This document shows, piece after piece, positions 4,396-47,936 of a stretch of DNA of 47,936 nucleotides (position 1 is its first letter; each line of letters opens with the position of its first letter). The stretch comes from a virus: the IMG/VR virus record IMGVR_UViG_3300020027_000001, positions 1 through 47,936 of that record; one strand, given 5' to 3'. Position numbers and translations under genes: made by a program. The notes under the pieces are model-generated. The model saw only the letters and a program-made list of their open reading frames with translations, made no database searches and had not been told where the DNA came from.

Positions 4396-4796
4396 ACACT
4401 ATAGACAGTATAAGTAGTGCGGCCGATGTCACTCATGTACAGGACCATATAAGTCGACTCATATCCGGGTATTTAAAGATGATGAATCATGCTGCAGATA
4501 ATGCACTTAAAGCATCTTGCTATGGCAATGAGTCGTTGGAGGATTTCTGGGACACCGTGGATAAGAAATGGAGTGTACGAGTAATTGAGTTAAACCATAT
4601 TGGAAAGAAGATAACAGATGCCTACGAAGAAAAAGAGAAAGTCAGCTCCAAAAGATTCAGATCGAGTCTTTCTAAGTCAGTGTGTCGGAAAGATAATGGC
4701 GTACAAGAACGTAGGCAATCTTTCGGAGGCGAAAGTGTGGGCTGGAAACCTAGTAAAAGGTCTGGAGAAAATGGGCCTGATTTCATTGGGGGTTGA
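4389..4796 (+). CDS. Hypothetical protein starting at TTG, 135 aa
   Basis: A TTG eight bases after AGAGGTG opens a 135-codon frame. Residues 1-75 look like a genuine helical protein (ADVTHVQDHISRLISGYLKMMNHAADNALKAS), while the last 60 residues are low-complexity and overlap another plausible gene in a different frame (4618-4815). Either the two genes truly overlap, or the upstream frame once ended near 4620 and has lost its stop. Function unknown. Confidence 0.5.
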   Translation: MNNTIDSISSAADVTHVQDHISRLISGYLKMMNHAADNALKASCYGNESLEDFWDTVDKKWSVRVIELNHIGKKITDAYEEKEKVSSKRFRSSLSKSVCRKDNGVQERRQSFGGESVGWKPSKRSGENGPDFIGG

Positions 4797-4815
4797 CACC
4801 CCGGCCAAACCGTGA
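4618..4815 (+). CDS. Small basic-N-terminal helical protein, 65 aa
   Basis: The ATG follows GGAAAGAAG at a usable distance. The product starts with a basic run (PTKKKRKSAPKDS) and continues as an amphipathic helix (KVWAGNLVKGLEKMGLISLG), which looks more protein-like than the overlapping part of the 4389 frame. The basic N-terminus could contact nucleic acid. A sigma-70-like promoter for downstream genes overlaps its last codons. Confidence 0.55.
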   Translation: MPTKKKRKSAPKDSDRVFLSQCVGKIMAYKNVGNLSEAKVWAGNLVKGLEKMGLISLGVDTPAKP

Positions 4816-4821
4816 TACCAT
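4793..4821 (+). promoter_or_regulatory. Sigma-70-like promoter
   Basis: TTGACA at 4793-4798, a 17-base spacer, then TACCAT at 4816-4821. The -35 is consensus, spacing is optimal, and the -10 keeps the T-A....T positions. It would drive a long leader (about 4830-5153) and the gene at 5154. It reads in the direction of the early/middle block and needs only host sigma-70. Confidence 0.6.
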
Positions 4822-9840: not shown

Positions 9841-10557
9841 ATGAATCTTCCACCAAAAGTCAACGTCATTGACTTCGAGACTACAGACAAAGACGCTAAG
9901 AAATGTCACCCTATTGAATTTGCTGCAGTGAGTGCAGATAGGGAATTTACCACCTTCATCAAGTGCCCTGTCCCGATCCCTCCGGAGACGAGTGCTATTC
10001 ATCATATTGTAGCTGCGGATATTGAAGCAGATACCTTGGCTAAAACCTGGGACGATCTCCGCATTACTATTCTAAATCCTCCTGAGGGTACGATCTACGT
10101 AGCACATAATGCTAAGTACGAACAGGGAGTTATCGGAGAAGGTTATGAAGCTCTCTCGTGGATTTGTACCTACAAAGTCGCGCTTCGGCTATGGCCGGAC
10201 GCCCCTAACCACAAGAATGAGACTCTTCGATACCATCTCGGCTTGGGACAGTTGGGAAGAAGTGCTTCGCAGCAAACGCATTCCGCACTTCATGACTGCC
10301 GAGTTACTTCTCTCATTCTTATCGAGGCCTTGCAGTACGCGACACTACAAGAAATGGTTCAGTGGACGTCCGAGCCGGCACAGTACTCTAAGATAATGTT
10401 CGGTAAGTATGCTGGTAGTAAATGGGATGCAATTGATCTTGGATACCTCCAGTGGATTTGCAAGCAAGCTGATATGGATATAGACATAGTTGCCTGCGCC
10501 GCTCGTGAAATTCAACGCCGTAGGGAGGCATCAAGTGCAACTCCTCGACCTCGTTAA
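9841..10557 (+). CDS. DnaQ/ExoX-like DEDDh 3'-5' exonuclease, 238 aa
   Basis: The exonuclease core shows DFETTD (motif I), AHNAKYE (motif II region) and HSALHDCRVT (motif III, the DEDDh His and Asp). A C-terminal domain has the pattern MFGKYAGSKWDAIDLGYLQWI, like the ExoX C-terminal/DUF3820 module (FGKYKGK..EIP..YL.WL). This combination predicts a single-strand 3'-5' exonuclease used in repair, recombination or proofreading. It is separate from the proofreading domain of the phage polymerase at 12137-14888. Confidence 0.87.
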   Translation: MNLPPKVNVIDFETTDKDAKKCHPIEFAAVSADREFTTFIKCPVPIPPETSAIHHIVAADIEADTLAKTWDDLRITILNPPEGTIYVAHNAKYEQGVIGEGYEALSWICTYKVALRLWPDAPNHKNETLRYHLGLGQLGRSASQQTHSALHDCRVTSLILIEALQYATLQEMVQWTSEPAQYSKIMFGKYAGSKWDAIDLGYLQWICKQADMDIDIVACAAREIQRRREASSATPRPR

Positions 10558-10765
10558 ACCTATCGAAGATATGTCTGATGAAGAACTTCACGAACATCTT
10601 CGACAGGTCCGTCAGCGTAGAACCATCGAACGCCCCGCCAGCAAAACTCGTGCGAAGAAAAAAGCTAAGAAGGGCAACGTAACTCGCATCAACAAAGCAG
10701 AAGACTTATTCTCATCGCTCAGTGAAGAGGAAAAGAAAGTCCTCCTCGCACAACTCCAGGGGTAA
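10535..10765 (+). CDS. Small basic protein sharing the LSEEEKKVLLAQLQ tail, 76 aa
   Basis: The GTG at 10535 with GGGAGGC upstream is chosen over a TTG at 10490, which lies within the exonuclease gene. Helical N-terminus (DMSDEELHEHLRQVRQRR), a Lys/Arg-rich middle (TRAKKKAKKGNVTRINK) and the C-terminal helix LFSSLSEEEKKVLLAQLQG shared with three other small proteins in the genome. The basic middle could bind DNA. Overlaps the exonuclease gene by 23 bases. Confidence 0.7.
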   Translation: MQLLDLVKPIEDMSDEELHEHLRQVRQRRTIERPASKTRAKKKAKKGNVTRINKAEDLFSSLSEEEKKVLLAQLQG

Positions 10766-12130
10766 ATGATGGCACAGGTACACATCGAAGGACAGCGGAA
10801 GGATAAACTAAAGCATATCAACCCCAAGGATATTACCATTGGAGAGAGGTTTCGTGAGGACCTAGGTGATATTGAAAGTCTTATTGAGTCAATCAAAGAG
10901 AAGGGGATCATCCAGCCTATCACTGTGAATGAAGCAGGCGTGCTGCTTGCCGGCGGTCGACGAACTCACGCCGCCATACAGATGGGACTCACCAGTATCC
11001 CAGCTATTGTACGCCCGTCATCTGATGAAATTGATGAGCGTGAGATTGAACTAATGGAGAATGTCCACCGGAAGGATTTCGGATGGGCAGAGAAGGCTAA
11101 GTTGGTTGACCGCATCAACACCTTGAAGAAAGAGAAAGACCCCGAATGGTCTATGCGGAAGACCGCTGCGCTAATTGACAAGAGTGTCGGTGGTGTTAGC
11201 AACGCCATTGAACTTGCCAACGCTATCCGTGTCATGCCGGAGCTTGGCAACTTGAAGACCGCAGATGAAGCAAACAAGATGCTTAAGAAACTCCACGAAC
11301 AGGCTATCGTTCAGGAGATGAGGAAGCGTCAGGAGTCCGGCATTACTAAAGCTGAAGGCGGTACTGGCAGTCAGCACGACAGGACGATTGCACAGGTCCT
11401 TCGCATGGCTGATGCTAATTACCACATCAAAGATGTCTTTGAAGGACTTGCCGGCCTGAAAGACAACGGCATGATCCACATTATTGAGTGTGATCCTCCA
11501 TACGGAATTGGCCTCAATGAACAAAAAGCCTCAAAAGACTCTGTTGATAGCACGGTCCACGGATACGAAGAAATCGAAAGGGAAAAGTATCCTGAGTTCC
11601 TTGATCGAATCACAAGCGAACTCTTTAGGGTGGCGGGTAAAGATTGTTGGCTTGTCTTCTGGTACGGACCTACTTGGCATCAGCCTGTCCTTGATAGTCT
11701 GCGACGATCTGGATGGAAAGTAGATGAAATCCCGGCCATCTGGGTTAAGGGTAGCGGTCAAACTATGCAGCCCAATATGTACTATGCTCGATGCTATGAA
11801 CCCTTCTTTCTATGTCGGAAGGGCAATCCTACCATGATTGAACAAGGCCATTCTAATGTCTTCCAAGTCAACGGAGTTGCAACTGCCGGAGCCAGTAAGA
11901 AGTACCATCCTACCCAACGGCCAGTTAAACTCATCGAGGACGTCTTCAATACCCTGGGAGCAGGTCAGCAAATTGTCTTGGTTCCTTTCCTTGGTAGTGG
12001 CGCCACTTTACGTGCCTGCTATAACCTTGGATTCAAAGGATGGGGTTACGACCTGGACGGAAAGTACAAAGACCAATTCCTCCTCGCCGTAGAAGAAGAC
12101 ACCCGCAAGCTGCTTTCCAACCCGGACTAA
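10766..12130 (+). CDS. ParB-domain/HTH fused to DNA adenine- or cytosine-N4-type methyltransferase
   Basis: 454-aa fusion. Residues about 15-110 form a ParB/sulfiredoxin-like domain (IKEKGIIQPITV, GGRRTHAAIQMG, ELMENVHRKDFG, the last like the ENxxRxD motif). An HTH-like segment follows (SMRKTAALIDKSVGGVSNAIEL). From about 215 a class-beta amino-methyltransferase has the catalytic DPPYGIG (residues about 242-248) before the AdoMet motif VPFLGSGATLRA (about 406-417). It likely methylates phage DNA for protection; the ParB-HTH half may recruit it to specific sites, possibly the genome-wide palindromes (inference). Begins directly after the previous stop. Confidence 0.88.
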   Translation: MMAQVHIEGQRKDKLKHINPKDITIGERFREDLGDIESLIESIKEKGIIQPITVNEAGVLLAGGRRTHAAIQMGLTSIPAIVRPSSDEIDEREIELMENVHRKDFGWAEKAKLVDRINTLKKEKDPEWSMRKTAALIDKSVGGVSNAIELANAIRVMPELGNLKTADEANKMLKKLHEQAIVQEMRKRQESGITKAEGGTGSQHDRTIAQVLRMADANYHIKDVFEGLAGLKDNGMIHIIECDPPYGIGLNEQKASKDSVDSTVHGYEEIEREKYPEFLDRITSELFRVAGKDCWLVFWYGPTWHQPVLDSLRRSGWKVDEIPAIWVKGSGQTMQPNMYYARCYEPFFLCRKGNPTMIEQGHSNVFQVNGVATAGASKKYHPTQRPVKLIEDVFNTLGAGQQIVLVPFLGSGATLRACYNLGFKGWGYDLDGKYKDQFLLAVEEDTRKLLSNPD

Positions 12131-12136
12131 AAGCCA

Positions 12137-13165
12137 ATGTCTTTTTTCCCAGATATGAGTCAAAAGAGATTGGTCCCTCCTGCAGGTAGTCCTTCCTCTC
12201 GCATTGCTATAGTCGGAGACTTCGTCAGTCAATATGATGCCAGGAGTCTCCGACCCTTTAATGGTCCTGACTCTGGTGTATTGGAACAGTGTCTCCACGG
12301 AGCTGGTCTGATTCGCGGGGAAGTTTACCTAACTAACCTGTTCAAGGAAGTAATGATGCCTGCACAGAAACAGCAGGTATATAAGATTCCTGGAAAACAG
12401 AAGCAGGGGAAACTCACCGAAGCTTCGCAGCCTTACGTGGCTGCGCTGCGCTCCGAGCTTGCGAAGGGGTCAGCGAACGTGGTCGTCGCCTGCGGGCCTG
12501 CGGCCTACGCGGCTCTATGCGGCCGTGGATCGATCTCGAAGCACCGCGGTTATGTCTTTTCCGCAGACCTTGGCTCGCGTAGGGTCAAGGTGATTCCGAC
12601 CTTCCATCCGCTGACGACAGTGCGGGGAGGGTACATCAATAGGCACTTGATGGTAGAGGATTTTAAGAAGGCGAAATATGAGGGTGGGTTCGCAGAACTA
12701 AAACGTCCGCAGCGCACACTGATGTGGGAGTACAACGGACTTCCAGATGTGTTGCAAGTACTGGATGCAATAGCGAAAGCTCCAGCCGTGGCTTATGACA
12801 TTGAGGTCTTGCACTATGAGACCTCGATGATTTCCTTGGCCAACAGTCCAAGCATGAGCATCGTCATCCCTTTCGATGATCGCTGGTCGGTGGAGGAGGA
12901 AGGTATTATCTGGCGGAGGGTTCAAAAGATTCTGGGAAATCCTGACACTCTGAAGATTGCACAGAATTGTATCTTCGATAATCAGTTCATGCTGACACAT
13001 GATGGGATTGTAATTAGGGGAGAGGTTCACGATACTATGATTGGACATAGCTGTATGTATCCAGACTTTCAGAAGGGGTTAGGCTTTCTTGGAAGTCTGT
13101 ATTGTGGAAGTCAGGCGTTTTGGAAGGACTCTGTGAAGTTTAACGATGTGAAGGGAGATTCTTGA
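12137..13165 (+). CDS. DNA polymerase fragment 1: UDG-like domain plus 3'-5' exonuclease (Exo I and II)
   Basis: 342 aa. Residues about 20-170 resemble a family 4/5 uracil-DNA glycosylase fold (RPFNGPDSGVLEQCL, VYLTNLFKE, VVACGPAAYAAL, IPTFHP) but the usual GEAPG catalytic motif reads GDFVS, so it is probably a non-catalytic uracil- or DNA-binding module. From about 215 a family A polymerase exonuclease starts: Exo I in VAYDIEV, Exo II in AQNCIFDNQF. The frame stops at KFNDVKGDS before the Exo III motif, which is in the protein at 13353. A GC-rich patch lies at about 12418-12620. Confidence 0.85.
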   Translation: MSFFPDMSQKRLVPPAGSPSSRIAIVGDFVSQYDARSLRPFNGPDSGVLEQCLHGAGLIRGEVYLTNLFKEVMMPAQKQQVYKIPGKQKQGKLTEASQPYVAALRSELAKGSANVVVACGPAAYAALCGRGSISKHRGYVFSADLGSRRVKVIPTFHPLTTVRGGYINRHLMVEDFKKAKYEGGFAELKRPQRTLMWEYNGLPDVLQVLDAIAKAPAVAYDIEVLHYETSMISLANSPSMSIVIPFDDRWSVEEEGIIWRRVQKILGNPDTLKIAQNCIFDNQFMLTHDGIVIRGEVHDTMIGHSCMYPDFQKGLGFLGSLYCGSQAFWKDSVKFNDVKGDS

Positions 13166-13350
13166 TGCCATCTATGTCTAGCACACAGATGAAGTACTAC
13201 GACGAGACTGGAGAACCTATTCCTCCGGAGTTTGTGCTGGCAGGGTATCACTACTGTCCTGACTGGGATATGATGTTGATAGGTCCAGGCTCTTCAGAAA
13301 TGTCCGGCTGTTCTTGCGGAAGACCTCAATGTAAAAGTTGTGAGGATTAA
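13162..13350 (+). CDS. Small Cys-rich protein inside the split polymerase, 62 aa
   Basis: ATGA overlap with the first polymerase fragment, ending two bases before the second. Starts MPSMSSTQMKYYDETGEPIPPEF and ends SGCSCGRPQCKSCED, a likely zinc site, plus an earlier YHYCPDWD. No family recognised. It is not homologous to the polymerase in appearance, so it is an added gene that interrupts the exonuclease domain rather than polymerase sequence. Its location within a translationally coupled trio would give 1:1:1 production with the polymerase halves. Confidence 0.7.
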   Translation: MMPSMSSTQMKYYDETGEPIPPEFVLAGYHYCPDWDMMLIGPGSSEMSGCSCGRPQCKSCED

Positions 13351-13352
13351 AC

Positions 13353-14888
13353 ATGCCAGACGTTAAGATGCTTGAATACAGTGCGCTTGATAGTGCGTGT
13401 ACCTTTGAAATCCATGATGGCTTCTGGCCAGACCTGGGGGATGAATTCACTCCGGCCGTCGATATGACTATGGCGATTCTTCCTGTCTTAATGTTCATGC
13501 AGACGAGGGGAGTGAGCGTTAGTCGGGACTTGCTGGAGGAGACAAAGAAAGACGTAATCCAAGCAACGAAAGAAAAGCAAGCTGAGCTAGAGATTCTCTG
13601 TGGGAGGCCGCTTAATGTTAACAGCACCAAGGATTGCCAAACATACTTTTACGATGAACTCGGAATTCCCCCATATAAGAATCAGGGTAGAATCACCTGC
13701 GATGATATGGCACTTCAGCGACTCGTTCGTGGAACTGCGACTCGCCCAGGACTGCGACAGGCTAAGCTTGTGCAGGATATTAGAGGCTTGCAAAAACTCT
13801 ACGGAACTTATCTCAATATTGAGTTCGACGCCGATGGACGTATGCGAGGGAGCTACAATCCTAGGGGTACAAAGTTTGGCCGTTTATCCTCAAGCAAGAC
13901 GATCTTCGGTACGGGAACGAACTTTCAAAATCTTCCTCAAGATTTTAAGAAGTTCCTGGTGGCAGACCATGGGTATTGCTTTCTGGAAGTCGATAAGCGG
14001 CAGGCTGAGTGGGTAGTTGTTGCTTACGCTTCTGGGGATGCTAACATGATTTCCGCCGTAGAGGAAGGAAAAGATGTTCACGTACACACTGCCGAACTTA
14101 TGTTCCATGCGTCAGCAGAAGTTATTAAGTACGAACACAAACTTGTCGGACATTTTACCGACTCCGATACCATTAGAACGCTTCGACTTAACGACGAGTT
14201 TGTATCTCAAGGTATGGTGGGATCACAATGGCCTCGTACAATGTCACTTCGTCAATGTGGCAAGAAGTCGAATCATGGTCTAAATTACGATGAAGGCTAT
14301 AAAGGCTTCGCAATGATTAATGAGATTGACGAGAAGGAAGCAAACCGTATCGTTAATATGTACCACACTATTTATCCGGGAATCAGGATTTGGTATGAGT
14401 CTATTAAAAGGAGTCTCCAGAAGGATCGTACACTTACTAATTGCTTTGGCAGAACGGTTCGGTTTCTAGACGCGTGGGATCGAGACCTTTGGCGTGCTGC
14501 CTACAGCATGATTCCACAAGCAACTGTTGTGGATTCTCTTAACAGCGGAATGGTAAAAATCTACAATGATAATGAGCTCTGTGGAACTGGAGGTTACAAT
14601 ATGGACGTGCTTGCACAAGTGCATGACTCCATCCTCCTTCAGGTTCCCATCACGTTCTTGGCAAAGTTCTATGACAGCATCACAGATAAGATCACCGACT
14701 ATACAAGCCCTATGCTCTCCTACAATGGACGTGATTTCAAGATTGCTTCTGATTATAAAGTGGGGCTGAACTGGGGAGGCTACAACAAAGACAAGAATCC
14801 CAATGGCATGGTTGAAGTAAACAACCATGAAGAATTTATGGCACAGTTAGCCGAATGGGAAAAACTTAATGGCACGGCAACTTGTTAA
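13353..14888 (+). CDS. DNA polymerase fragment 2: Exo III motif plus family A polymerase domain
   Basis: 511 aa. The first residues carry the missing Exo III motif (LEYSALDSA, Tyr9 and Asp13). Then come polymerase motifs: A (EVDKRQAEWVVVAYASGD, about residue 212), B (CGKKSNHGLNYDEGYKGF, about 302-319) and C (AQVHDS, about 420-425). This is the replicative family A polymerase of the phage. Together with the 12137 product it rebuilds one exonuclease-polymerase, so the halves must associate without covalent linkage or the split is recent. Start ATG has only a modest upstream site (GTGAGGA). Confidence 0.9.
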   Translation: MPDVKMLEYSALDSACTFEIHDGFWPDLGDEFTPAVDMTMAILPVLMFMQTRGVSVSRDLLEETKKDVIQATKEKQAELEILCGRPLNVNSTKDCQTYFYDELGIPPYKNQGRITCDDMALQRLVRGTATRPGLRQAKLVQDIRGLQKLYGTYLNIEFDADGRMRGSYNPRGTKFGRLSSSKTIFGTGTNFQNLPQDFKKFLVADHGYCFLEVDKRQAEWVVVAYASGDANMISAVEEGKDVHVHTAELMFHASAEVIKYEHKLVGHFTDSDTIRTLRLNDEFVSQGMVGSQWPRTMSLRQCGKKSNHGLNYDEGYKGFAMINEIDEKEANRIVNMYHTIYPGIRIWYESIKRSLQKDRTLTNCFGRTVRFLDAWDRDLWRAAYSMIPQATVVDSLNSGMVKIYNDNELCGTGGYNMDVLAQVHDSILLQVPITFLAKFYDSITDKITDYTSPMLSYNGRDFKIASDYKVGLNWGGYNKDKNPNGMVEVNNHEEFMAQLAEWEKLNGTATC

Positions 14889-16471: not shown

Positions 16472-16632
16472 AGTGCTTTATCTTTCGACTCGGTAGTAGT
16501 GTGTCTGATGGAGACAGGCTTGGTGTTATTGTCTGCCTTCAAACATTCCTTCACTGTTGTAAAGCCGGAGTTGTTTGGCCGGGTGAGCGTCGAGTAACCT
16601 ACCATGATGAACGAACGTTGAGGTTAGCATGA
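16468..16632 (+). CDS. Small hypothetical protein, 54 aa
   Basis: Starts within the end of the previous gene and ends overlapping the next ATG (16629-16632). Sequence opens KCFIFRLGSSVSDGDRLGVIVCLQTFLHCCKAG and ends in a basic tail. Four Cys residues are present but not in a standard zinc spacing. Function unknown. Identified by the double overlap rather than by length. Confidence 0.6.
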   Translation: MKCFIFRLGSSVSDGDRLGVIVCLQTFLHCCKAGVVWPGERRVTYHDERTLRLA

Positions 16633-17066
16633 CTACTATTGCGTGGGATGGAACTTTTTTATGTGCTGACAGGATGGCCAGTCAGGAAGGTATGTTTCGC
16701 AGTGTACAAAAGATATTTAAGATTAAGGATAATTTATACCTGGCCGCGGCAGGCTGTCATCAGGACACACTGTTAGCAGTCAAGTACCTAACTGACGGTG
16801 GCGATCTCCCGACCTTAAGCTCCGAGCACTTTGTTGGAATTATTGTCAGGGATGGAAGGGCATATCGTGTAGAAGAGAAGTTAATGGAGTCAGAAATTCT
16901 TGAGCCATTCTACGCGCTTGGAGAAGGTCGAGACTACGCAACGGCTGCAATGGCTTTGGGTAAAACTGCATACGATGGAGTAGAACTGGCAGCTAAGTAT
17001 TGTTTATATACAGGGCTTGGTATTGATAAGGTCTTTCCTGGGGGAGACGATGACATTCCCTTCTGA
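16629..17066 (+). CDS. Proteasome/HslV-like Ntn hydrolase, 145 aa
   Basis: Opens MTTIAWDGTFLCADRMAS, matching the start of HslV and proteasome beta subunits, where removal of Met exposes a catalytic Thr. LYLAAAGCHQDTLLAVKYL and the closing YALGEGRDYATAAMALG are also family features. About 145 aa is shorter than HslV (about 175). No unfoldase partner is encoded nearby. It might form a peptidase, use a host ATPase or be a non-proteolytic relative. Last gene of the + strand block, followed by a convergent terminator. Confidence 0.78.
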   Translation: MTTIAWDGTFLCADRMASQEGMFRSVQKIFKIKDNLYLAAAGCHQDTLLAVKYLTDGGDLPTLSSEHFVGIIVRDGRAYRVEEKLMESEILEPFYALGEGRDYATAAMALGKTAYDGVELAAKYCLYTGLGIDKVFPGGDDDIPF

Positions 17067-18492: not shown

Positions 18493-18788
18493 GGTTCAAC
18501 CGGTCCCAGACTGCCCTGGCTGACCGGCGGTTCATATGGTGGGAAATCCGGCACCCCGGATGCAGCAAACACGTCAGCGGGCATTGGTTGCGTCCATGGG
18601 GGTGTCTGGGAGTCCGGAACACCCCTGGCAAAGTCCTGCGGTTGGCGGGACTCCCAGTGGGGTGGACAGACGTAGTAACCCTGCCAATGTCTTTTCATCT
18701 CACTTGCTTTAAACTTACGACCACACTCAAAGCAGACTGTATTCCAGTCGCCGTGAGCATAGTAATCAGCATGACCTTTATCAGTCAT
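18489..18788 (-). CDS. Conserved small zinc-ribbon phage protein, 99 aa
   Basis: Contains GDWNTVCFECGRKFKASEMKRHWQG and YYVCPPHWESRQPQDF: two Cys pairs forming a ribbon, followed by a Pro-rich tail. This is a widespread short phage protein found near virion or lysis genes, of unknown function. It overlaps the endolysin start by four bases and the end of the giant ejection protein by eight, so it links late structural and lysis genes. Confidence 0.78.
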   Translation of the reverse strand: MTDKGHADYYAHGDWNTVCFECGRKFKASEMKRHWQGYYVCPPHWESRQPQDFARGVPDSQTPPWTQPMPADVFAASGVPDFPPYEPPVSQGSLGPVEP

Positions 18789-21700
18789 CTTGTGTCTCCT
18801 GTTTCAAGGCTTGTTCCTTTTTGATCTGCTCAACAAGGTATGGGCCAATGAATGGAAGGTAACGAATGGACTTAGGATCGCCTCTCAGCATTTCGTCAAA
18901 TATCTTATATGGTGGAACGAATTGAGAGGCGATAGCTCCAATGGGTTCTGCCTTCTTAGTGCGTGCCATCTTGTCGCCGCCCTCTCTAAGTGCTGCGGCT
19001 TCTTCCTTCGTCACACCAGCAAACTTATCCTTCACGTACTCAGAGTATCCAAAGGTCTTAAACATATTCAAAGGAATGTCGGACCACTGGAAATCAACGT
19101 CTCGACCACGCATCCAGTCCTTGACCATCTGAGTACCAGCACCGGATAGTCCCATGACTACTCCAGCCTCGACCAAGTTCTTCAGACCTTTCGCTACGTT
19201 ACCTTTCTTAATCTCGTTGTAAGAATCTCTACGAAGTAAATCCATCTGCTTCATCATAAAGGACTTAAGCCAGAGATATGACCGTGCGTTGGGATGCTTG
19301 AGATATGTCATCGGCATCTCAATGCGGGAAATGGGCTGCGTTCGGGACAACTCCATAAAGGCGTAGTCTCTTGTAAGGTCAGTGATCTTACCTGATTTAA
19401 GTTCGGAGATTAGCTTAGGGAACTCATCGCCGAACGCAGCTTGATATTTGTCAGCTATTTTCTGTATACCTTTTGTGTTCTCACCTTCAGCACCTTTCAC
19501 AAGACGTTGGGCACGGATAACTGCTGCGTTAAGCGCAGTGTTCTTGCCAAACTTATCCACACCCGCAAACAAGCTGGTTTTGAATACCTTATTAACCCAG
19601 CGAGTTGTACGAAGTTCATTTGCAAATTCTTCTGAGATATGATCTGACAGACCAAAGTCTCTCATATCCAGATGCTTACGTCCAGTCACCTGACGGATAA
19701 CCGATTGCAAGGTTGATCGCAAGTCTTGAGTATACACCTGGAGACCCACGTCCGCAAGCTGTGTGCCGGCTGACCAGAAGTTACCAAGTAAACCTATGTT
19801 ACCAATGTTCTTAACGTTGCGGATGAAATCAGCTTCACCAATCTCACCAGGGCCAAATCGAGCTTTTAGAATGTCTGAGACTTCCTTAGCATCTGGTTGG
19901 GATAGTTTGCCAGATTTAATCTCCTCCGCCATAAGATTCTGTACGCTGCGATCCACGTCCAGGAACTCATGGTCACCCTTCTTCATGTTCTTAGCATACT
20001 CTCCGAAGAATCGAGCACGCTCAATATCGGAGACAGCAGATCGAATATAGGTATGCAGAGACTCAGCCGGGCCATAGTAATACTTCAATAGCTCCGGCGT
20101 GATCTCCTCAATACCACGATCCTTAGACCAGCCCGGCTGAGTGGAACGCTTGTCAGCGAAGAGTATCTTATTAATGATAGCAGCTTCTTCAAGATTACTG
20201 ATAGGCCGTCCATTCTGCCGGAGGGATTCTACATTAGCGTCCTGCAGGGCTTGCTGGATATTGTTAGAGTCTTCCTTCCCGATAGCCTTAAACAAACCTT
20301 CCTTATCCTTCACAACTCGCGGGAAGTATTCAAAGTTGCCACGCTTAAACCGCTTCAATCCAACCAGCTTATCTCCAAGGGAATCAAGGGCACTACGAAC
20401 ATTCTTGTATCCGTTGGATAGTTTGGAATCTCCAACAGCCTCCAACACCTTCTGAATGACAGTAGGTTCACCAGTCAACAGTGCACGATTAACAACGTCC
20501 TGTGTTGCCTTATTCTTCTTATTCAAGGCAACAAGAAACTCACCAGTCTTAGCGATATTGGCGTGCGTCTCAGCAAGTGTACGCCTCTCAGCCGTCATGA
20601 TCTTCTTAAAGACCGCCGGAGACTTATTCAAGATGCGAGTACTTGAAGCACCAAGCAGACTGTCAAAACCCCTAACAAGATTCCTACCGCCTCCAGATAA
20701 TCCAAGTGCAACCAACGCTCCAGCTGCTGCTCCAATTCTCTTATCTTCATCTGCAAAGTATGCACCGGCCGCTGCTCCTATTCCACCAATGGCCGCGACT
20801 TTGCCAGCCTTGGATATAAGTTCAGAATCAACGAAACCTTCCTGACCCTTGATCTTAGGCGCATCCGCACCATAACGCTTGCGCAAGGTTTCTTGCACGG
20901 CGTTACGACCTTGAAACAAACGACTCTTAACGGTTCCGATAGGTACATTAAGTTGAGTTGCGATCTCAGCTTCAGTGAAGCCCTCCATCTCCTTCAGCAT
21001 GACAACTTGTCGTTGCGCTTCCGGGAGTTTATCCAGAGCTTCCTGAATGTTCTTCTGAACTTCATTAGCGATTGCAATATTCTCAGGAGTATCAGCACCA
21101 GTAGGATTCTTTTCCTCGACCTTCGAGGCAAGCTCTCCAACTTCTGCCATATCGTTGTCTACAGTTTTACTGAGAGTGCCGCTGGTATCAGGGCGACGAA
21201 GCCCCTTACGCGCAGCCATGTTCAGTTCGTTCTCACCAATCTTATACAGCCAGGTATAGAACTGACTATTTCCTTCAAAGCTATCTAAGTTTCGGAAGGC
21301 TTGAAGGAACGTATTCTGCGCAATATCATCAACGTCTACAGCCGCACGACGATGTGCAGACCCCATACCTTGCCGGAGATTACGCTTGAGTCGTCCGTAG
21401 TATTGATCAAACAGCTGTGAATATGCACTCTGTTCTCCAGCCTTCGCACGACGGATAATGTCAACTTCATTAGGTAGCTGAGACTCCTTAAGCACAAGCC
21501 CAGGAATGCCACCATCAAGAGAGACAGCACCAGACTGACGCATCCGGTCAAGCACCCTGCCACCAGCAGGAAGTAGTAAACCAGCCAGTCCTCCAAGGAG
21601 ACCTCCTTCGGCTTTTAGTTCTTCTGGAGCGAGTGCGAAACCTGCAGCAGCGCCGCCAGCTGCTATGCCTCCACGCAGAAGAAGTTCCTGGTCAACATCA

Positions 21701-23856
21701 CCACGTTGCCATTTGGATCTGGCAAGCTTAGCATCTTTCTGATCAGCACGATTAAGAGCCCGCTTGATTGCAGGTACGTCTTTATCATACGCAGATTGAA
21801 TAGCATCGTCTTCATCCATCCTGGCAAGGTCATCAAGATTCTTATTAATCTTGAGAGCTTCATCCCACTGACCCTTAGCTTCTGCTGAGTCTCGTGCAGT
21901 AACTGCTTCGTCGAACTGACGCTGCAACTCGGAACTGCGCGCAGCTGCCGCTCGCTCCGCTCGGGCTTGCGCGATAGAACTCCGCCGCGCATCGCGAGTG
22001 GCTGAGCGATCCGAAGCGGCCCGCTCCTCCGCGTACTGCTGGGATCGAAGGATACGTTCTTCGGCTTTGAAGGACTGGTAGTCAGCGTAGTCGGAGTCAT
22101 TCTTGAAGGCCGACTTTACATCAGCGCGACGTTGGGCGATGTACTTTTCGGTATCGGTTTTGGAAGTGATTCCGAGAGCGCGGTTGATACGAGCTTGTAC
22201 GTCTAGAGTAGTGCTGGGCATTATCTCGCCAGCGGCTGCCGCTTCCACCTCCACGTCGTACTTGGCAGCGTCTCGGAGAATGTCCTCATAAGTTCCGTTG
22301 ATCTTGGCTCGGTCCAGGTCCAGCATCTTAGCCCTAGCACCGCGAGAGAAGATAACTCCCAGCGGGCCACCGATAAGGGCGCCTGCAGCTGCGGAGAACT
22401 TCAACTCATCGGTGTTCAGAGTTGTAGAAGTGGACAACTGGTCTGCGGCCGTGATTGCAGTGTTCAAGGCAGCGCCTAACGAACCGGCATCCAAGATGGA
22501 GTCGGCAGTCTTGATCATTCGAGAAGTAGTTTCTGCACCTGTAATCAACGCTCTGGTCGCAGCAATAGGCTTAGCTCCGAAGCCTAGAGGAACAGCTAAC
22601 AACTCCGGATCGGCCATCAGACTATTGACAAGCTGTGCCCCGAACTTACCAGGGTCTTCTACAGCAGCTTGTTTCAGTGCATCCCACTGAGCTCGGATAG
22701 TAGGGTCTTGTTCCTTCTTCCGAGCCGCGATGGCAGCCTTTGCAGCATCCACAGCTACGGCTGGATACTGGTCAGGATTGGCAACAATCTTATCCTGCAT
22801 CATAGTCTTACGAGCAGACATAAATGCAGTGCGCTCATTCTCGGGAGCACTGACCAAGGATTCAACGAAGTTGGCAGGAAGGGAATCCTCCAGCATAAGC
22901 TTAACAGGATTCTCTACATTCGCAAGGAAGCCAGGTTTCTGCTCCTCGGGAGGAATAGCTGCTACATCCTTACGTGCTTGAATATCTCTACCTTCACCAA
23001 AGGGATCAGCTTCGCCCTGTCGCGGAGTGTAGTCAGGGGAATCTACAGGAACCAATCCAAGGTCAGTCATCAACCTATTCTTGATGTGCCGTGCAGAACC
23101 CTTCGCTGCTTTAGCAACAGCTTCCCCAGCATTCCCTAACGCACCTAAAGCACGCTCGGAGAAGGGCTTATCCTCAACTTCCTCAATCGACTCCGGAGTT
23201 GAACCATATAGTTCGTCCAGACTGTAGCCAGTCGGAGTATCGTCGGATACCTGCGGCTGTACGTTCCTGTCCTCATCTGTACTGCCAGTAACAATAGTTC
23301 CAGCGTCAGTCCCTCCAACCTTACCAAGAGCTTTCGCAATATCGCTCGCACGCTTGGATACGTCAGCAAGATATTGCCGAGTCTTCGCACCACGGTTACC
23401 TCCCCCAGGCCCAGCAAAGTGGGATTGAATAGCTTCTTCCACACCGCCGGCCTTCATACGCTCGGCAAAATCTTTCATCGCCGCATCAGTTGCCTGGGCA
23501 GGATCAAAGGGATCAATACCCCGAGCCTTTGCAGTCTCGGGAATATACTGGAACATTCCGCCTGCTCCGAACTCATCGTTCTTTGCGGAGGGGTTGTATC
23601 CAGATTCCTGTTGTGCTAGTGCAAGTCCATACTCCTCCGGGACTCCGTACCTCTGCGCAGCCTTGACGATCAGGTCTTGTAGTGTCTTGTCCTTGGGAAG
23701 CATACCATCTACATCGGAGCCTACCTGGTAGGTAGTCCTGGATGAAGGGCTGCTACCCCTGCGACCGCGAGGAGTGCGGTGCGCCGGAACAAGTTTGACT
23801 CCCTCAACTTCTTGTGGGCCATAGAGCTCATCAAGAGTGAACGAACCAGTTGGCAT
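18781..23856 (-). CDS. Giant ejection (internal virion) protein with transglycosylase and embedded ECF sigma factor, 1691 aa
   Basis: N-terminal lytic transglycosylase (about residues 58-165; catalytic Glu84 in QQESGYNPSAK, then GMFQYIPETAKARGID). The short motif YSLDELYG occurs at residues 6-13 in variant form and at 211-218. A long Ala/Arg helical region leads to a hydrophobic Gly/Ala module (729-767), a complete ECF-type sigma factor (796-995), a second Gly/Ala module (1024-1058) and a long helical C-terminal half of ejection-protein character (TRDYAFMELSRTQPISR, LWLKSFMMKQMDLLRRDSY). Expected to sit in the capsid, be ejected with DNA, cut peptidoglycan and reach the cytoplasm. A palindrome copy and AGGAG precede the start. 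Confidence 0.9.
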   Translation of the reverse strand: MPTGSFTLDELYGPQEVEGVKLVPAHRTPRGRRGSSPSSRTTYQVGSDVDGMLPKDKTLQDLIVKAAQRYGVPEEYGLALAQQESGYNPSAKNDEFGAGGMFQYIPETAKARGIDPFDPAQATDAAMKDFAERMKAGGVEEAIQSHFAGPGGGNRGAKTRQYLADVSKRASDIAKALGKVGGTDAGTIVTGSTDEDRNVQPQVSDDTPTGYSLDELYGSTPESIEEVEDKPFSERALGALGNAGEAVAKAAKGSARHIKNRLMTDLGLVPVDSPDYTPRQGEADPFGEGRDIQARKDVAAIPPEEQKPGFLANVENPVKLMLEDSLPANFVESLVSAPENERTAFMSARKTMMQDKIVANPDQYPAVAVDAAKAAIAARKKEQDPTIRAQWDALKQAAVEDPGKFGAQLVNSLMADPELLAVPLGFGAKPIAATRALITGAETTSRMIKTADSILDAGSLGAALNTAITAADQLSTSTTLNTDELKFSAAAGALIGGPLGVIFSRGARAKMLDLDRAKINGTYEDILRDAAKYDVEVEAAAAGEIMPSTTLDVQARINRALGITSKTDTEKYIAQRRADVKSAFKNDSDYADYQSFKAEERILRSQQYAEERAASDRSATRDARRSSIAQARAERAAAARSSELQRQFDEAVTARDSAEAKGQWDEALKINKNLDDLARMDEDDAIQSAYDKDVPAIKRALNRADQKDAKLARSKWQRGDVDQELLLRGGIAAGGAAAGFALAPEELKAEGGLLGGLAGLLLPAGGRVLDRMRQSGAVSLDGGIPGLVLKESQLPNEVDIIRRAKAGEQSAYSQLFDQYYGRLKRNLRQGMGSAHRRAAVDVDDIAQNTFLQAFRNLDSFEGNSQFYTWLYKIGENELNMAARKGLRRPDTSGTLSKTVDNDMAEVGELASKVEEKNPTGADTPENIAIANEVQKNIQEALDKLPEAQRQVVMLKEMEGFTEAEIATQLNVPIGTVKSRLFQGRNAVQETLRKRYGADAPKIKGQEGFVDSELISKAGKVAAIGGIGAAAGAYFADEDKRIGAAAGALVALGLSGGGRNLVRGFDSLLGASSTRILNKSPAVFKKIMTAERRTLAETHANIAKTGEFLVALNKKNKATQDVVNRALLTGEPTVIQKVLEAVGDSKLSNGYKNVRSALDSLGDKLVGLKRFKRGNFEYFPRVVKDKEGLFKAIGKEDSNNIQQALQDANVESLRQNGRPISNLEEAAIINKILFADKRSTQPGWSKDRGIEEITPELLKYYYGPAESLHTYIRSAVSDIERARFFGEYAKNMKKGDHEFLDVDRSVQNLMAEEIKSGKLSQPDAKEVSDILKARFGPGEIGEADFIRNVKNIGNIGLLGNFWSAGTQLADVGLQVYTQDLRSTLQSVIRQVTGRKHLDMRDFGLSDHISEEFANELRTTRWVNKVFKTSLFAGVDKFGKNTALNAAVIRAQRLVKGAEGENTKGIQKIADKYQAAFGDEFPKLISELKSGKITDLTRDYAFMELSRTQPISRIEMPMTYLKHPNARSYLWLKSFMMKQMDLLRRDSYNEIKKGNVAKGLKNLVEAGVVMGLSGAGTQMVKDWMRGRDVDFQWSDIPLNMFKTFGYSEYVKDKFAGVTKEEAAALREGGDKMARTKKAEPIGAIASQFVPPYKIFDEMLRGDPKSIRYLPFIGPYLVEQIKKEQALKQETQDD
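20683..21672 (-). repeat. Duplicated Gly/Ala hydrophobic module flanking the sigma domain
   Basis: Module 1 (residues 729-767, bases 21556-21672) and module 2 (1024-1058, bases 20683-20787) share the scheme GGI-A-rich, a short acidic turn (APEELKAEGG / ADEDKRIGAA), a second A/L/G-rich run, and a closing GGGR or AGGR. Each could insert as a membrane hairpin. The sigma domain lies precisely between them. Confidence 0.7.
20872..21471 (-). other. ECF-type sigma-70 domain inside the ejection protein
   Basis: Residues about 796-995 of the 1691-aa protein. Region 2: AYSQLFDQYYGRLKR, then DVDDIAQNTFLQAFRNLD (from residue 841) and FEGNSQFYTWLYKIGENEL, the pattern of ECF sigma region 2.1-2.4. A polar linker (PDTSGTLSKTVDND...) follows. 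Region 4: IQEALDKLPEAQRQVVMLKEM, then FTEAEIATQLNVPIGTVKSRLF (T975-V-K-S-R-L) with the classical helix-turn-helix. Length, order and motifs are those of a whole ECF factor; there is no frameshift or deletion, so it should be able to fold. Confidence 0.92.
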
Positions 23857-23896: not shown

Positions 23897-25054
23897 TCAT
23901 TCGACAGGAACGCCCTTAGTACCATCCCAGAGGATAGTACCCTTACCAGTTACATAGTACATACCCTTCTTCAACTTCTTATCTGCGGGAAGAGGAGCAG
24001 GCATATCAGGGGTCTTGCCGGGCTTGGGTACGAACTTTGTAGTATCATCGCTGATGGGGAATCCGAAGATTGAATAACCCTTATCGGTGTCCCAGTCTCC
24101 GTTACTCTGACTCTCAGATATAGCGCGGCTGAGGGCAGTATCCCAATCCAGCGCCTTATTGGTCCGGACAAGGGCCTTCGCCCTAGCAGCAATCGCGTAA
24201 GCACCAGTCTTGATGGCTTCCGGAGCAGCGGTAGAAGAATCTCCCTTGAATATATGTGCCTTGATTGCCGCCTCAGCAGCCTTCACATCATTAGTGTTTG
24301 GCGCACTAGCATCCGTACCAGACTTCTCTTTCAGCTTTGCAATCCGATCAGCATTATTCTGCCGCTGTTGTGCAATGTCGGCTAGGCGAGTTTGATTCTT
24401 CTTCCGAAACTCTGAATCCTCTTCCAGCCGATCCTGCTGTCTGGACTGAAAGTCCATAGTCGCACGATCCTTTGCTGACAGTGCCTGCTCATTGATGTAG
24501 GTTACAACATCAGGATCGTACTCCATCTTCTTCATTTCAGCAAGAGCTTCTGGAGGAAGTGCTTGTGCATCCTCCAACTGTTGTAAGCCCCACTCCCACT
24601 CGGATTGGTTCTGTGCGATGCCGACAGTCTGTGCCACAAGGTCTGCAGTTTTGAGAGTAGTCTCGACTATATTCTTCCGTGCAGTAATATCTGCATTCCT
24701 GATTTCATTCTCTTGCTTACGAATACCGGAGGCTGCCTTCAGATAGTCCGCACCCATCTTCGGTGCACCACCTCGCATGAAGGTATCTGCTAGCACCTCC
24801 AGCGGCACAGCATCACTGGCGTCATTAGGATCATGCTTGAACAGGGTTGACTCCCCAGAGAACGTGCCATTAGCAATCTGTTGCATCCTTTCAGACGCAA
24901 TCATTCCTAATTCATTCTCCCTCTGCAGAGTCTCATTAGACAGACGCTGTCCTTCAGATTCCACTGCTAATGCTTCTCGGTTAGCAATGGCATTGAGAGT
25001 CCGCTGTCCTGTCTCAATCCCCTCCAAACCAAATCTAGAAAAATCAACTGGCAT
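23897..25054 (-). CDS. Internal virion/ejection protein, 385 aa
   Basis: Long helical, coiled-coil-like protein (SNETLQRENELGMIASERMQQ, AKDRATMDFQSRQQDRLEEDSEFRKKNQTRLADIAQQRQNN), with a polar C-terminal region including KGMYYVTGKGTILWDGTKG. Position directly upstream of the giant ejection protein and downstream of another small ejection-type protein is the usual order of podovirus internal proteins. It likely helps build the trans-envelope channel during DNA delivery. Confidence 0.78.
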   Translation of the reverse strand: MPVDFSRFGLEGIETGQRTLNAIANREALAVESEGQRLSNETLQRENELGMIASERMQQIANGTFSGESTLFKHDPNDASDAVPLEVLADTFMRGGAPKMGADYLKAASGIRKQENEIRNADITARKNIVETTLKTADLVAQTVGIAQNQSEWEWGLQQLEDAQALPPEALAEMKKMEYDPDVVTYINEQALSAKDRATMDFQSRQQDRLEEDSEFRKKNQTRLADIAQQRQNNADRIAKLKEKSGTDASAPNTNDVKAAEAAIKAHIFKGDSSTAAPEAIKTGAYAIAARAKALVRTNKALDWDTALSRAISESQSNGDWDTDKGYSIFGFPISDDTTKFVPKPGKTPDMPAPLPADKKLKKGMYYVTGKGTILWDGTKGVPVE

Positions 25055-25062
25055 ATATCACC

Positions 25063-25656
25063 TTAATAAGTTCCAGTGCCGAAGGCAGTACCGCCTCCAG
25101 TAGCTACGCCAGGAGACCAACTTGCATTTGCGCCTGCTCCGACAGAGATATTACTGGCCGGTTGATTAAACCTACCTCCAGCAACTGTAGCAAGATTTCC
25201 CAAGTTATTCGCAACGCCGCCGATGCTGGATAGATAATTGTCTGAGCCATCCTGCCTAGCTCCCATGCCAGCAGAACTAACACCACCTGCAGTCTGAATA
25301 CCTACATCAGCACCACTTAACCGGGCAAGGTTATCAAACTCACTCTGATATGCTGAGGCGCCAGCGTCAGCAGCGGCAACGAGTGCGTTTCCGGAGCCGG
25401 TGTACCCCTGAGAAGCGACGGCCCTTTCTGCCGCCTGCATTCGCGATTTCCATACCGCGGAGTCCTTGATGGAGGATGGGTCCTTGGATAGTTTATCCAG
25501 GCGTGCAGCAGCATCTCCACGGTACTGCGCATAAGGATCAGCACCCTTCTGAGATTCTGTTACAAACTTATTTTGTTCTTTCTGTGCTTTCTTTGCTTGA
25601 TTAGCTGCATATACAGTACTTGCAGCGCCAATAGCAGCAGCAGTAATAGCGGCCAT
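25063..25656 (-). CDS. Internal virion/ejection protein, small, 197 aa
   Basis: N-terminal hydrophobic Ala-rich helix (AAITAAAIGAASTVYAANQAKKAQKEQNKF), then a helical and Gly/Ser/Asn-rich C-terminal part. This profile (short membrane-active start, low-complexity tail) matches the smallest of the three podoviral ejection proteins. The gene lies immediately before the 385-aa and 1691-aa ejection proteins, completing the expected trio. Confidence 0.78.
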   Translation of the reverse strand: MAAITAAAIGAASTVYAANQAKKAQKEQNKFVTESQKGADPYAQYRGDAAARLDKLSKDPSSIKDSAVWKSRMQAAERAVASQGYTGSGNALVAAADAGASAYQSEFDNLARLSGADVGIQTAGGVSSAGMGARQDGSDNYLSSIGGVANNLGNLATVAGGRFNQPASNISVGAGANASWSPGVATGGGTAFGTGTY

Positions 25657-42936: not shown

Positions 42937-42965
42937 ATAATACCACCATGAAGGCGGAATGTCAA
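42937..42965 (-). promoter_or_regulatory. Sigma-70 promoter of the late block
   Basis: On the - strand: TTGACA, a 17-base spacer and TATTAT. The -35 is consensus and the -10 has one difference. It reads toward the 71-aa gene at 42903 and the whole late block. Perfect host-type sequence means its timing must be controlled by something else, such as DNA structure or a repressor, if the genes are truly late. Confidence 0.75.
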
Positions 42966-44480: not shown

Positions 44481-44627
44481 TGTTGTACATGTTGGAGTGT
44501 TTACCTGTTGTATGTTTGTTGTTACCGTATATATATCCCTTCTAAAAAAACTACAAAAAAAATAAAAGAGATATATATGGGGTAACAACATTCATACAAC
44601 ACTGAAACATCACCAACATTGACAACA
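44481..44627. repeat. Large imperfect inverted repeat (possible origin)
   Basis: Left arm 44481-44541 and the complement of 44567-44627 match at about 80% with one base inserted: TGTTGT, ATGTTGG, TGTTT, TGTTGTATG, GTTGTTACC and ATATATATC are shared in order. The 25-base centre is almost pure A (AAAAAAACTACAAAAAAAAT). In RNA it would make a long hairpin; in DNA a cruciform with an easily melted centre. Confidence 0.75.
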
Positions 44628-44647
44628 TTCCATGAATGCGGGATAAT
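44619..44647 (+). promoter_or_regulatory. Sigma-70 promoter overlapping the inverted repeat
   Basis: TTGACA (44619-44624), 17-base spacer, GATAAT (44642-44647). The -35 lies inside the right arm of the inverted repeat, so DNA or RNA folding could compete with polymerase binding. Drives the gene at 44695 and the following early set. Host-type consensus strength. Confidence 0.8.
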
Positions 44648-47748: not shown

Positions 47749-47936
47749 ATGTCGTACAATTTTTCTAATATGGATGATGCTACCCTTGATGAATGTATAA
47801 GCGCACTTCATCAAGAAAGAAAGAGCCGCATTAAGCTGCAAATTCATACCTACCCCATTCCTAGTAGCTTGTTAGGAACTCCTGCTATTCTTGAGTACCG
47901 CAGAGAAAATTCCGTAACTCTTGTGGAAGCTCTTAC
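47749..47936 (+). CDS. Small hypothetical protein, 5' part (truncated by the window end)
   Basis: The ATG at 47749 follows TGGAATATAACAG. The protein starts MSYNFSNMDDATLDECISALHQERKSR and continues at position 3 of the window to the stop at 188, 82 residues in total. Acidic N-terminus, basic middle. Function unknown. Confidence 0.75.
   Translation, partial: MSYNFSNMDDATLDECISALHQERKSRIKLQIHTYPIPSSLLGTPAILEYRRENSVTLVEAL
47810..47936. repeat. Terminal direct repeat, right copy
   Basis: Identical to positions 1-127. Removing one copy gives a closed unit of 47,809 bp. Confidence 0.95.

Follow-up and report, generated by a model that had tools for sequence, protein, structure and literature searches.

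Does a phage lineage bring a sigma factor of its own into the host cell within the protein that ejects its genome? This question is raised by one gene in a viral DNA of 47,936 nucleotides (IMG/VR record IMGVR_UViG_3300020027_000001; the whole stretch analysed is called the window here). The original prediction proposed that a complete ECF sigma factor is embedded in a giant internal virion protein and could thereby enter the cell together with the DNA. The first 127 bases of the window recur exactly at its end (self-comparison of the sequence), and therefore the genome is complete, with a length of 47,809 bp.

1–127, no strand: direct terminal repeat, first copy (identical to 47810–47936)
47810–47936, no strand: direct terminal repeat, second copy (identical to 1–127)

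The leftward genes of the window are structural (terminase, portal, major head protein, head closure protein, and minor structural proteins), and the rightward genes are those of replication (exonuclease, Sak4, DNA polymerase A in pieces, and primase). The DNA polymerase A functions are divided among separate frames of 238 aa (exonuclease), 342 aa, and 511 aa within 9841–14888; a single 838-aa protein of the relative G026 corresponds to the latter two. The window also encodes an N6/N4 DNA methylase fused with a ParB_N domain (10766–12130) and a homologue of the HslV-family peptidase (16629–17066; PHROG 1040, E = 6e-26). The palindrome TGTTCAAAWTTTGAACA is present in eight exact copies (4379, 8983, 16255, 23870, 32009, 37805, 44440, and 47712), where chance would give none, and is not present in 176 related loci. 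Its copies are mostly intergenic, and three of them, including the one at the giant gene, are immediately upstream of a ribosome site. We regard the palindrome as a candidate operator or mRNA hairpin; a function as a promoter element was rejected, with an inconsistent −10 and copies that adjoin start codons.

The gene in question is a single uninterrupted ORF and the final large gene of the structural operon. Its parts and the two genes that precede it are as follows.

18781–23856, minus strand: giant polyvalent ejection-type protein, 1691 aa (ORF; homologues of the same architecture)
23392–23673, minus strand: N-terminal lytic transglycosylase SLT, residues 62–155 (Pfam SLT, 2e-12; T7 gp16 match)
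22348–22404, minus strand: hydrophobic glycine-rich segment, residues 485–503 (hydropathy)
21553–21684, minus strand: glycine-zipper-like hydrophobic hairpin upstream of the sigma domain, residues 725–768 (hydropathy)
20872–21471, minus strand: ECF sigma factor domain, residues 796–995 (Pfam, PHROG, PDB sequence, and fold)
21205–21414, minus strand: sigma region 2, core binding and −10 (Pfam Sigma70_r2; 2map, TM 0.77)
20902–21051, minus strand: sigma region 4, −35 helix-turn-helix (Pfam Sigma70_r4_2; 2h27, TM 0.85, 1.2 Å)
20692–20823, minus strand: glycine-rich hydrophobic segment past the sigma domain, residues 1012–1055 (alignment)
18784–20829, minus strand: C-terminal domain common to the whole family, residues 1010–1691 (alignment; 110 ORFs in related contigs)
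23897–25054, minus strand: second gene of the ejection module, 385 aa, at the place held by gp15 in T7 and gp20 in P22 (kept beside the giant gene in relatives)
25063–25656, minus strand: first gene of the ejection module, 197 aa, at the place held by gp14 in T7 and gp7 in P22 (kept in relatives, including L166)

The predicted location of the sigma domain, 20872–21471, corresponds exactly to residues 796–995, and the four motifs on which the prediction was based were located at residues 841–854, 869–878, 944–957, and 970–981. The Pfam search suggested as a check gave matches above the curated cut-offs for Sigma70_r4_2 (residues 936–985, E = 1e-16), Sigma70_ECF (799–991, 1e-11), and Sigma70_r2 (815–884, 8e-8). 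The domain also matched PHROG 1740 ‘RNA polymerase sigma factor’ (E = 1e-29) and, over its whole length, E. coli RpoE (6jbq/1or7; phmmer against the PDB, E = 7e-26), and a whole-length comparison with an enterobacterial RpoE gave 64/184 identities. These matches are far beyond chance. Regions 2 and 4 are present and regions 1.1 and 3 are absent, which is the make-up of an ECF sigma factor.

In the structure prediction that had likewise been suggested (AlphaFold2 on 16 aligned sequences), both regions fold with high confidence, with pLDDT values of about 91–93 for region 2 and about 84–91 for region 4, and the linker between them is flexible (pLDDT <50 over model residues 109–141). The fold predicted from the single sequence was poor (pLDDT 63). 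A Foldseek search matched region 2 to SigE region 2 with the −10 element (2map, TM 0.77) and region 4 to SigE region 4 on −35 DNA (2h27, TM 0.85, 1.2 Å). Whole-chain TM scores are low because the domains are placed freely relative to one another, as expected of a flexible linker without a partner. Region 4 and the part of region 2 that binds the core enzyme have the canonical form in the window, as they do in most relatives, and the region 2 motifs are eroded in L057, L066, and most of all L069. Based on the sequence matches and the modelled folds, we designate residues 796–995 as a complete ECF sigma factor, as was first proposed, with core binding and transcription start as its predicted functions. 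The domain resembles E. coli RpoE in regions 2 and 4 and, in relatives, in promoters of the GGAACT/GTCTAA type (discussed below). The phage domain differs in being part of a 1691-aa protein, with no anti-sigma partner seen.

A probable ejection role is assigned to the giant protein because of its SLT domain, its gene order, and its family. The lytic transglycosylase expected at the N-terminus was confirmed above the curated cut-off, and 96 aa of this part align with the N-terminus of T7 gp16 at 34% identity (E = 1e-6, one-sequence search). T7 gp16 shares the SLT domain but P22 gp16 does not have it; hence, it is not universal. The C-terminal ‘ejection-protein helices’ of the original prediction have no match in Pfam, the PDB, or T7 gp16, and the proven ejection proteins gave no match to the C-terminal domain. 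Beyond the SLT domain, no homology to T7 gp16 was detectable (hhalign probability 0.1% for the C-terminal part), and profile comparison found none between the 197-aa gene and T7 gp14 or between the 385-aa gene and T7 gp15. Among the described ejection proteins of the T7/P22 gp16 kind, none contains a sigma domain.

The succession of a 197-aa gene, a 385-aa gene, and then the giant gene is kept in relatives, and gp16 is likewise the last gene of a three-gene module in T7 (gp14–gp15–gp16, with 196, 747, and 1318 aa) and in P22 (gp7–gp20–gp16; PMC8954989). The part of T7 gp16 between the membrane regions is located in the host cytoplasm, where gp16-C binds DNA (PMC8954989). The giant protein has a similar framing, with hydrophobic glycine-rich segments on both sides of the sigma domain (hydropathy and alignment). 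The hairpin at residues 725–768 is also kept in L057, L069, and L064, and L061 has a weak Pfam Glycine zipper 2TM match at the position of window residues 1012–1055. By analogy with these systems, the giant protein is probably ejected into the host with the DNA. We file it as a protein that would work like T7 gp16, and not as a member, because the C-terminal parts show no detectable homology.

Relatives were collected first via the terminase and then via the C-terminal domain, which was found in 110 ORFs of related contigs. The survey of homologous ejection proteins proposed with the original prediction identified 12 other IMG/VR phages with a sigma domain in a homologous or syntenic giant protein, and the embedded sigma is therefore not an assembly quirk. 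The 13 distinct phage records include the window, 11 records with the sigma domain upstream of the C-terminal domain in the same ORF (L057, L066, L069, L064, L060, L091, L093, L094, L095, L097, and L111; L075, a near copy of L060, was grouped with it), and L166. In L166, the sigma domain is in a 1796-aa ORF with a C-terminus too diverged to match, and the upstream 197-aa gene is homologous. In per-protein scans, Pfam region 4 was above the cut-off in 12 of the 13 sigma bearers and just below it in L069. Relatives of about 930–1000 aa have no sigma domain. A free sigma-like frame of 221 aa (22238–22378) is present in G045, a relative that lacks the embedded domain.

The module slot of L158 holds the ADP-ribosyltransferase of polyvalent proteins, L059 and L065 have a module with an ELQSD motif, and the giant proteins of L093 and L094 have a PcfJ-like part. 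L069 (1769–8842, 2358 aa) contains SLT and a diverged sigma domain, together with a DNA methylase that lies beside the sigma and is flanked by two hydrophobic hairpins. Polyvalent proteins are giant and multidomain, are encoded near virion genes, and carry swappable effector modules such as ADP-ribosyltransferase and DNA methylase (PMC5512222). The window family agrees with this description, having a giant multidomain protein in the late operon and slot contents that differ among relatives. The survey of polyvalent proteins by Iyer et al. (2017) covers the N4 virion RNA polymerase and T4 Alt, and the word ‘sigma’ is nowhere in its text (PMC5512222). Sigma appears to be a new module for polyvalent proteins.

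In the tree of C-terminal domains, all 12 sigma bearers that could be placed group together in a single clade (SH-aLRT 99). This clade has just one further row, L096, a contig that starts inside the C-terminal domain, past the slot, and cannot show a sigma. Once L096 is left out, sigma presence requires one change on the tree, for which one gain and no visible loss would be the simplest reading. The tree built from the sigma domains speaks neither for nor against a single origin (74/86), and it supports an RpoE-like subclade (96/96). The dN/dS values of the sigma part in three pairs were 0.085, 0.037, and 0.035, with equal or higher values in the flanks, and the sigma domain is under strong purifying selection. 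A comparison of L093/L094 with L095/L111 revealed up to 130/131 identical residues in region 2 and the linker and about 37/70 in region 4, which is a swap of region 4 alone between close relatives (L093:6389–7000; L095:6371–7003). The idea that this exchange altered the promoter was not supported, as the only promoter that they have in common does not differ between the two types.

No prophage copy was found in 84,980 prokaryote genomes (C-terminal profile scan), and INPHARED yielded no full-length homologue, with the sigma and SLT parts matched only separately. The best named INPHARED match, OR851396.1 ‘Salmonella phage S.Kent 1-2-1’, was discarded, being an rpoE-rseA-rseB-like bacterial fragment and not a phage gene; this GenBank entry is probably a mislabelled host contig.

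Cognate promoters with an AAC-type −35 would be expected of an ECF sigma factor. Over-represented word pairs upstream of genes were sought with no motif given beforehand, and GGAAC(T)...GTCT(AA) ranked top in both the L093 and the L094 genome. Perfect GGAACT-N16/17-GTCTAA elements are present in six copies each in these two genomes, five in that of L060, two in that of L166, and one on each of the 18-kb fragments that carry L095 and L111. The element was found in 6/6 records with the RpoE-like sigma subtype, which make up exactly the supported subclade, and in 0/29 other records (22 that lack an embedded sigma and seven whose sigma is of another subtype, the window among the seven). As a control, 60 shuffles of 40 kb gave one perfect element. 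The naive odds of 6e-7 for this co-occurrence are overstated because the six records share ancestry and are not six independent events. A broader pattern, GAAC-N16/19-GTCTRA, matched many records at background level and was dropped as evidence.

Between G028 and G029, the spacers have drifted and both hexamers are unchanged. Four of the copies in G028 are directed towards the early/replication side and one towards the terminase and structural genes, and a further copy is located immediately past the giant gene. G026 has four copies directed towards the replication side and one towards the structural genes. No sigma70-type promoter of 11/12 or better was found in these near-complete genomes (G028, G029, and G026; loci L181–L186 and L189–L191), whose operons have perfect sigma-E-type promoters. 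We take GGAACT/GTCTAA to be the textbook sigma-E (host RpoE) consensus, and host sigma-E could therefore also read these sites. The ECF elements are candidate promoters that look cognate to the embedded sigma in this one subclade.

The window itself lacks the GGAACT/GTCTAA element. Its complete 47.8-kb genome contains no ECF-like pair that is repeated, and its ECF-type dyads are not above shuffles. The promoters recognized there are of another type, identified by sequence.

42937–42965, minus strand: sigma70-type promoter, TTGACA-17-TATTAT, upstream of the structural operon
44619–44647, plus strand: sigma70-type promoter, TTGACA-17-GATAAT, upstream of the early/replication operon
4793–4821, plus strand: weaker sigma70-type promoter, TTGACA-17-TACCAT

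The window's sigma70-type promoters at 42965 and 44619 occupy the same divergent control position as the ECF promoters of the relatives, and thus host sigma70 could start both operons, including the first wave. The proposal that the virion sigma sets the first wave of transcription therefore stands in part: it has support in the subclade with cognate-looking ECF promoters before the early and structural operons, but not in the window, which has sigma70-type promoters and no ECF motif. In the window phage, the embedded sigma may add to the first wave instead of launching it. A T7-like RNA polymerase (PF00940) was found in none of 27 records (the window and 26 relatives), whereas the T7 positive control was detected.

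We consider a virion-delivered sigma to be a serious hypothesis, and we infer its packaging, delivery, core binding, and timing as follows. The giant protein would be packaged in the virion and then ejected, and its transglycosylase end would open the peptidoglycan in the periplasm. The central part between the membrane-type hairpins would reach the cytoplasm, like T7 gp16-C. There, close to the DNA as it enters, the sigma domain would capture host core RNA polymerase, and transcription would begin at ECF promoters on the incoming genome. Transcription might also help to draw in the rest of the genome, in the way that host polymerase acts in T7 (PMC8954989). We lean slightly towards the view that sigma was built once into a podovirus-like ejection protein and is packaged, delivered, and initiating at ECF promoters via host core enzyme. 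More tentatively, this phage lineage might inject its own sigma via the ejection machine so that transcription on ECF promoters proceeds without prior phage protein synthesis, with polymerase recruited at the DNA entry pore.

Chief among the competing readings is an ordinary late sigma whose place in a virion protein is incidental. The late-made giant protein would then act mainly in the producing cell, redirecting host polymerase to phage promoters before packaging, as might be suggested by the ECF promoters that precede the structural operon and directly follow the giant gene in G028 and G029, and by the phiEco32-type sigma, which serves middle and late genes (PMC9965538). We judge this unlikely: it offers no reason to fuse the sigma into, and retain it within, a packaged protein; no good ribosome site for separate translation of the domain from an internal start was found in the giant gene; and four of the five or six promoters face the early/replication side, in genomes without strong sigma70-type promoters. 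The delivered domain could instead be a decoy that diverts or holds host core polymerase and turns host transcription off, leaving phage promoters unserved. The −35-binding fold retained in region 4 would be needless for such a decoy, and six relatives have cognate-looking promoters, which makes this reading quite unlikely even though the slot may hold an ADP-ribosyltransferase in relatives, matching T4 Alt (PMC5512222), and the window has sigma70-type promoters without an ECF motif.

The two other readings deny the domain a role in transcription or its arrival in the cytoplasm. A retired sigma fold might serve as a DNA-binding or structural ejectosome part that clamps the entering genome in the manner of T7 gp16-C, which contacts DNA in the cytoplasm (PMC8954989), and the eroded region 2 motifs in L069 and L057/L066 would fit such a fate. 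Nevertheless, the window and most relatives keep a canonical region 4 and a canonical core-binding part of region 2, and the strong purifying selection and the promoter co-occurrence argue against retirement, so that we regard it as very unlikely. Finally, the giant protein may not be ejected into the cytoplasm, or its sigma part may stay in the periplasm or capsid as a passenger. The unmatched C-terminal domain would allow this, but SLT, operon position, and size agree with the T7 and P22 ejection proteins and a dN/dS of 0.04–0.09 is not expected of a passenger, and we consider it highly improbable.

The statement that no described phage delivers a sigma inside an ejection protein agrees with the open-access literature searched, in which we found no precedent, and a review of ejection proteins makes no mention of sigma (PMC8954989). 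Free phage sigma factors are common, for example in phiEco32 and jumbo phages. The phiEco32/kuravirus sigma is made in the cell for middle and late genes (PMC9965538); it is phage-encoded and uses host core polymerase, but is a free protein, unlike the embedded sigma. In a Twort-like phage, a free sigma was present in virion preparations and was judged non-structural by the authors (PMC5618024). T4 Alt is packaged and acts on host RNA polymerase at once, as an ADP-ribosyltransferase rather than a sigma. The closest in design is the N4 virion RNA polymerase (Schitoviridae), in which transcription machinery in a giant virion protein is injected for early genes (PMC4496689, PMC5512222). The window family likewise has a transcription component in a giant protein that would be delivered by the virion. 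However, N4 brings an entire polymerase, and the window family only a sigma, which would need host core enzyme; the N4-type T7-like RNA polymerase domain is absent from the giant protein (PF00940 search).

If our preferred reading of a delivered sigma is correct, the virion-borne domain would be the sigma-only counterpart of the N4 virion RNA polymerase, and sigma factors would join the list of phage-injected cargo. The domain is small and testable, with predicted promoters. It would represent a new viral capture of host transcription, in which the specificity subunit alone is brought in, fixed to the ejection machine, and genome entry and transcription initiation would be joined in one protein. 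This would offer a clue to how phages that lack a polymerase of their own gain control of the cell.
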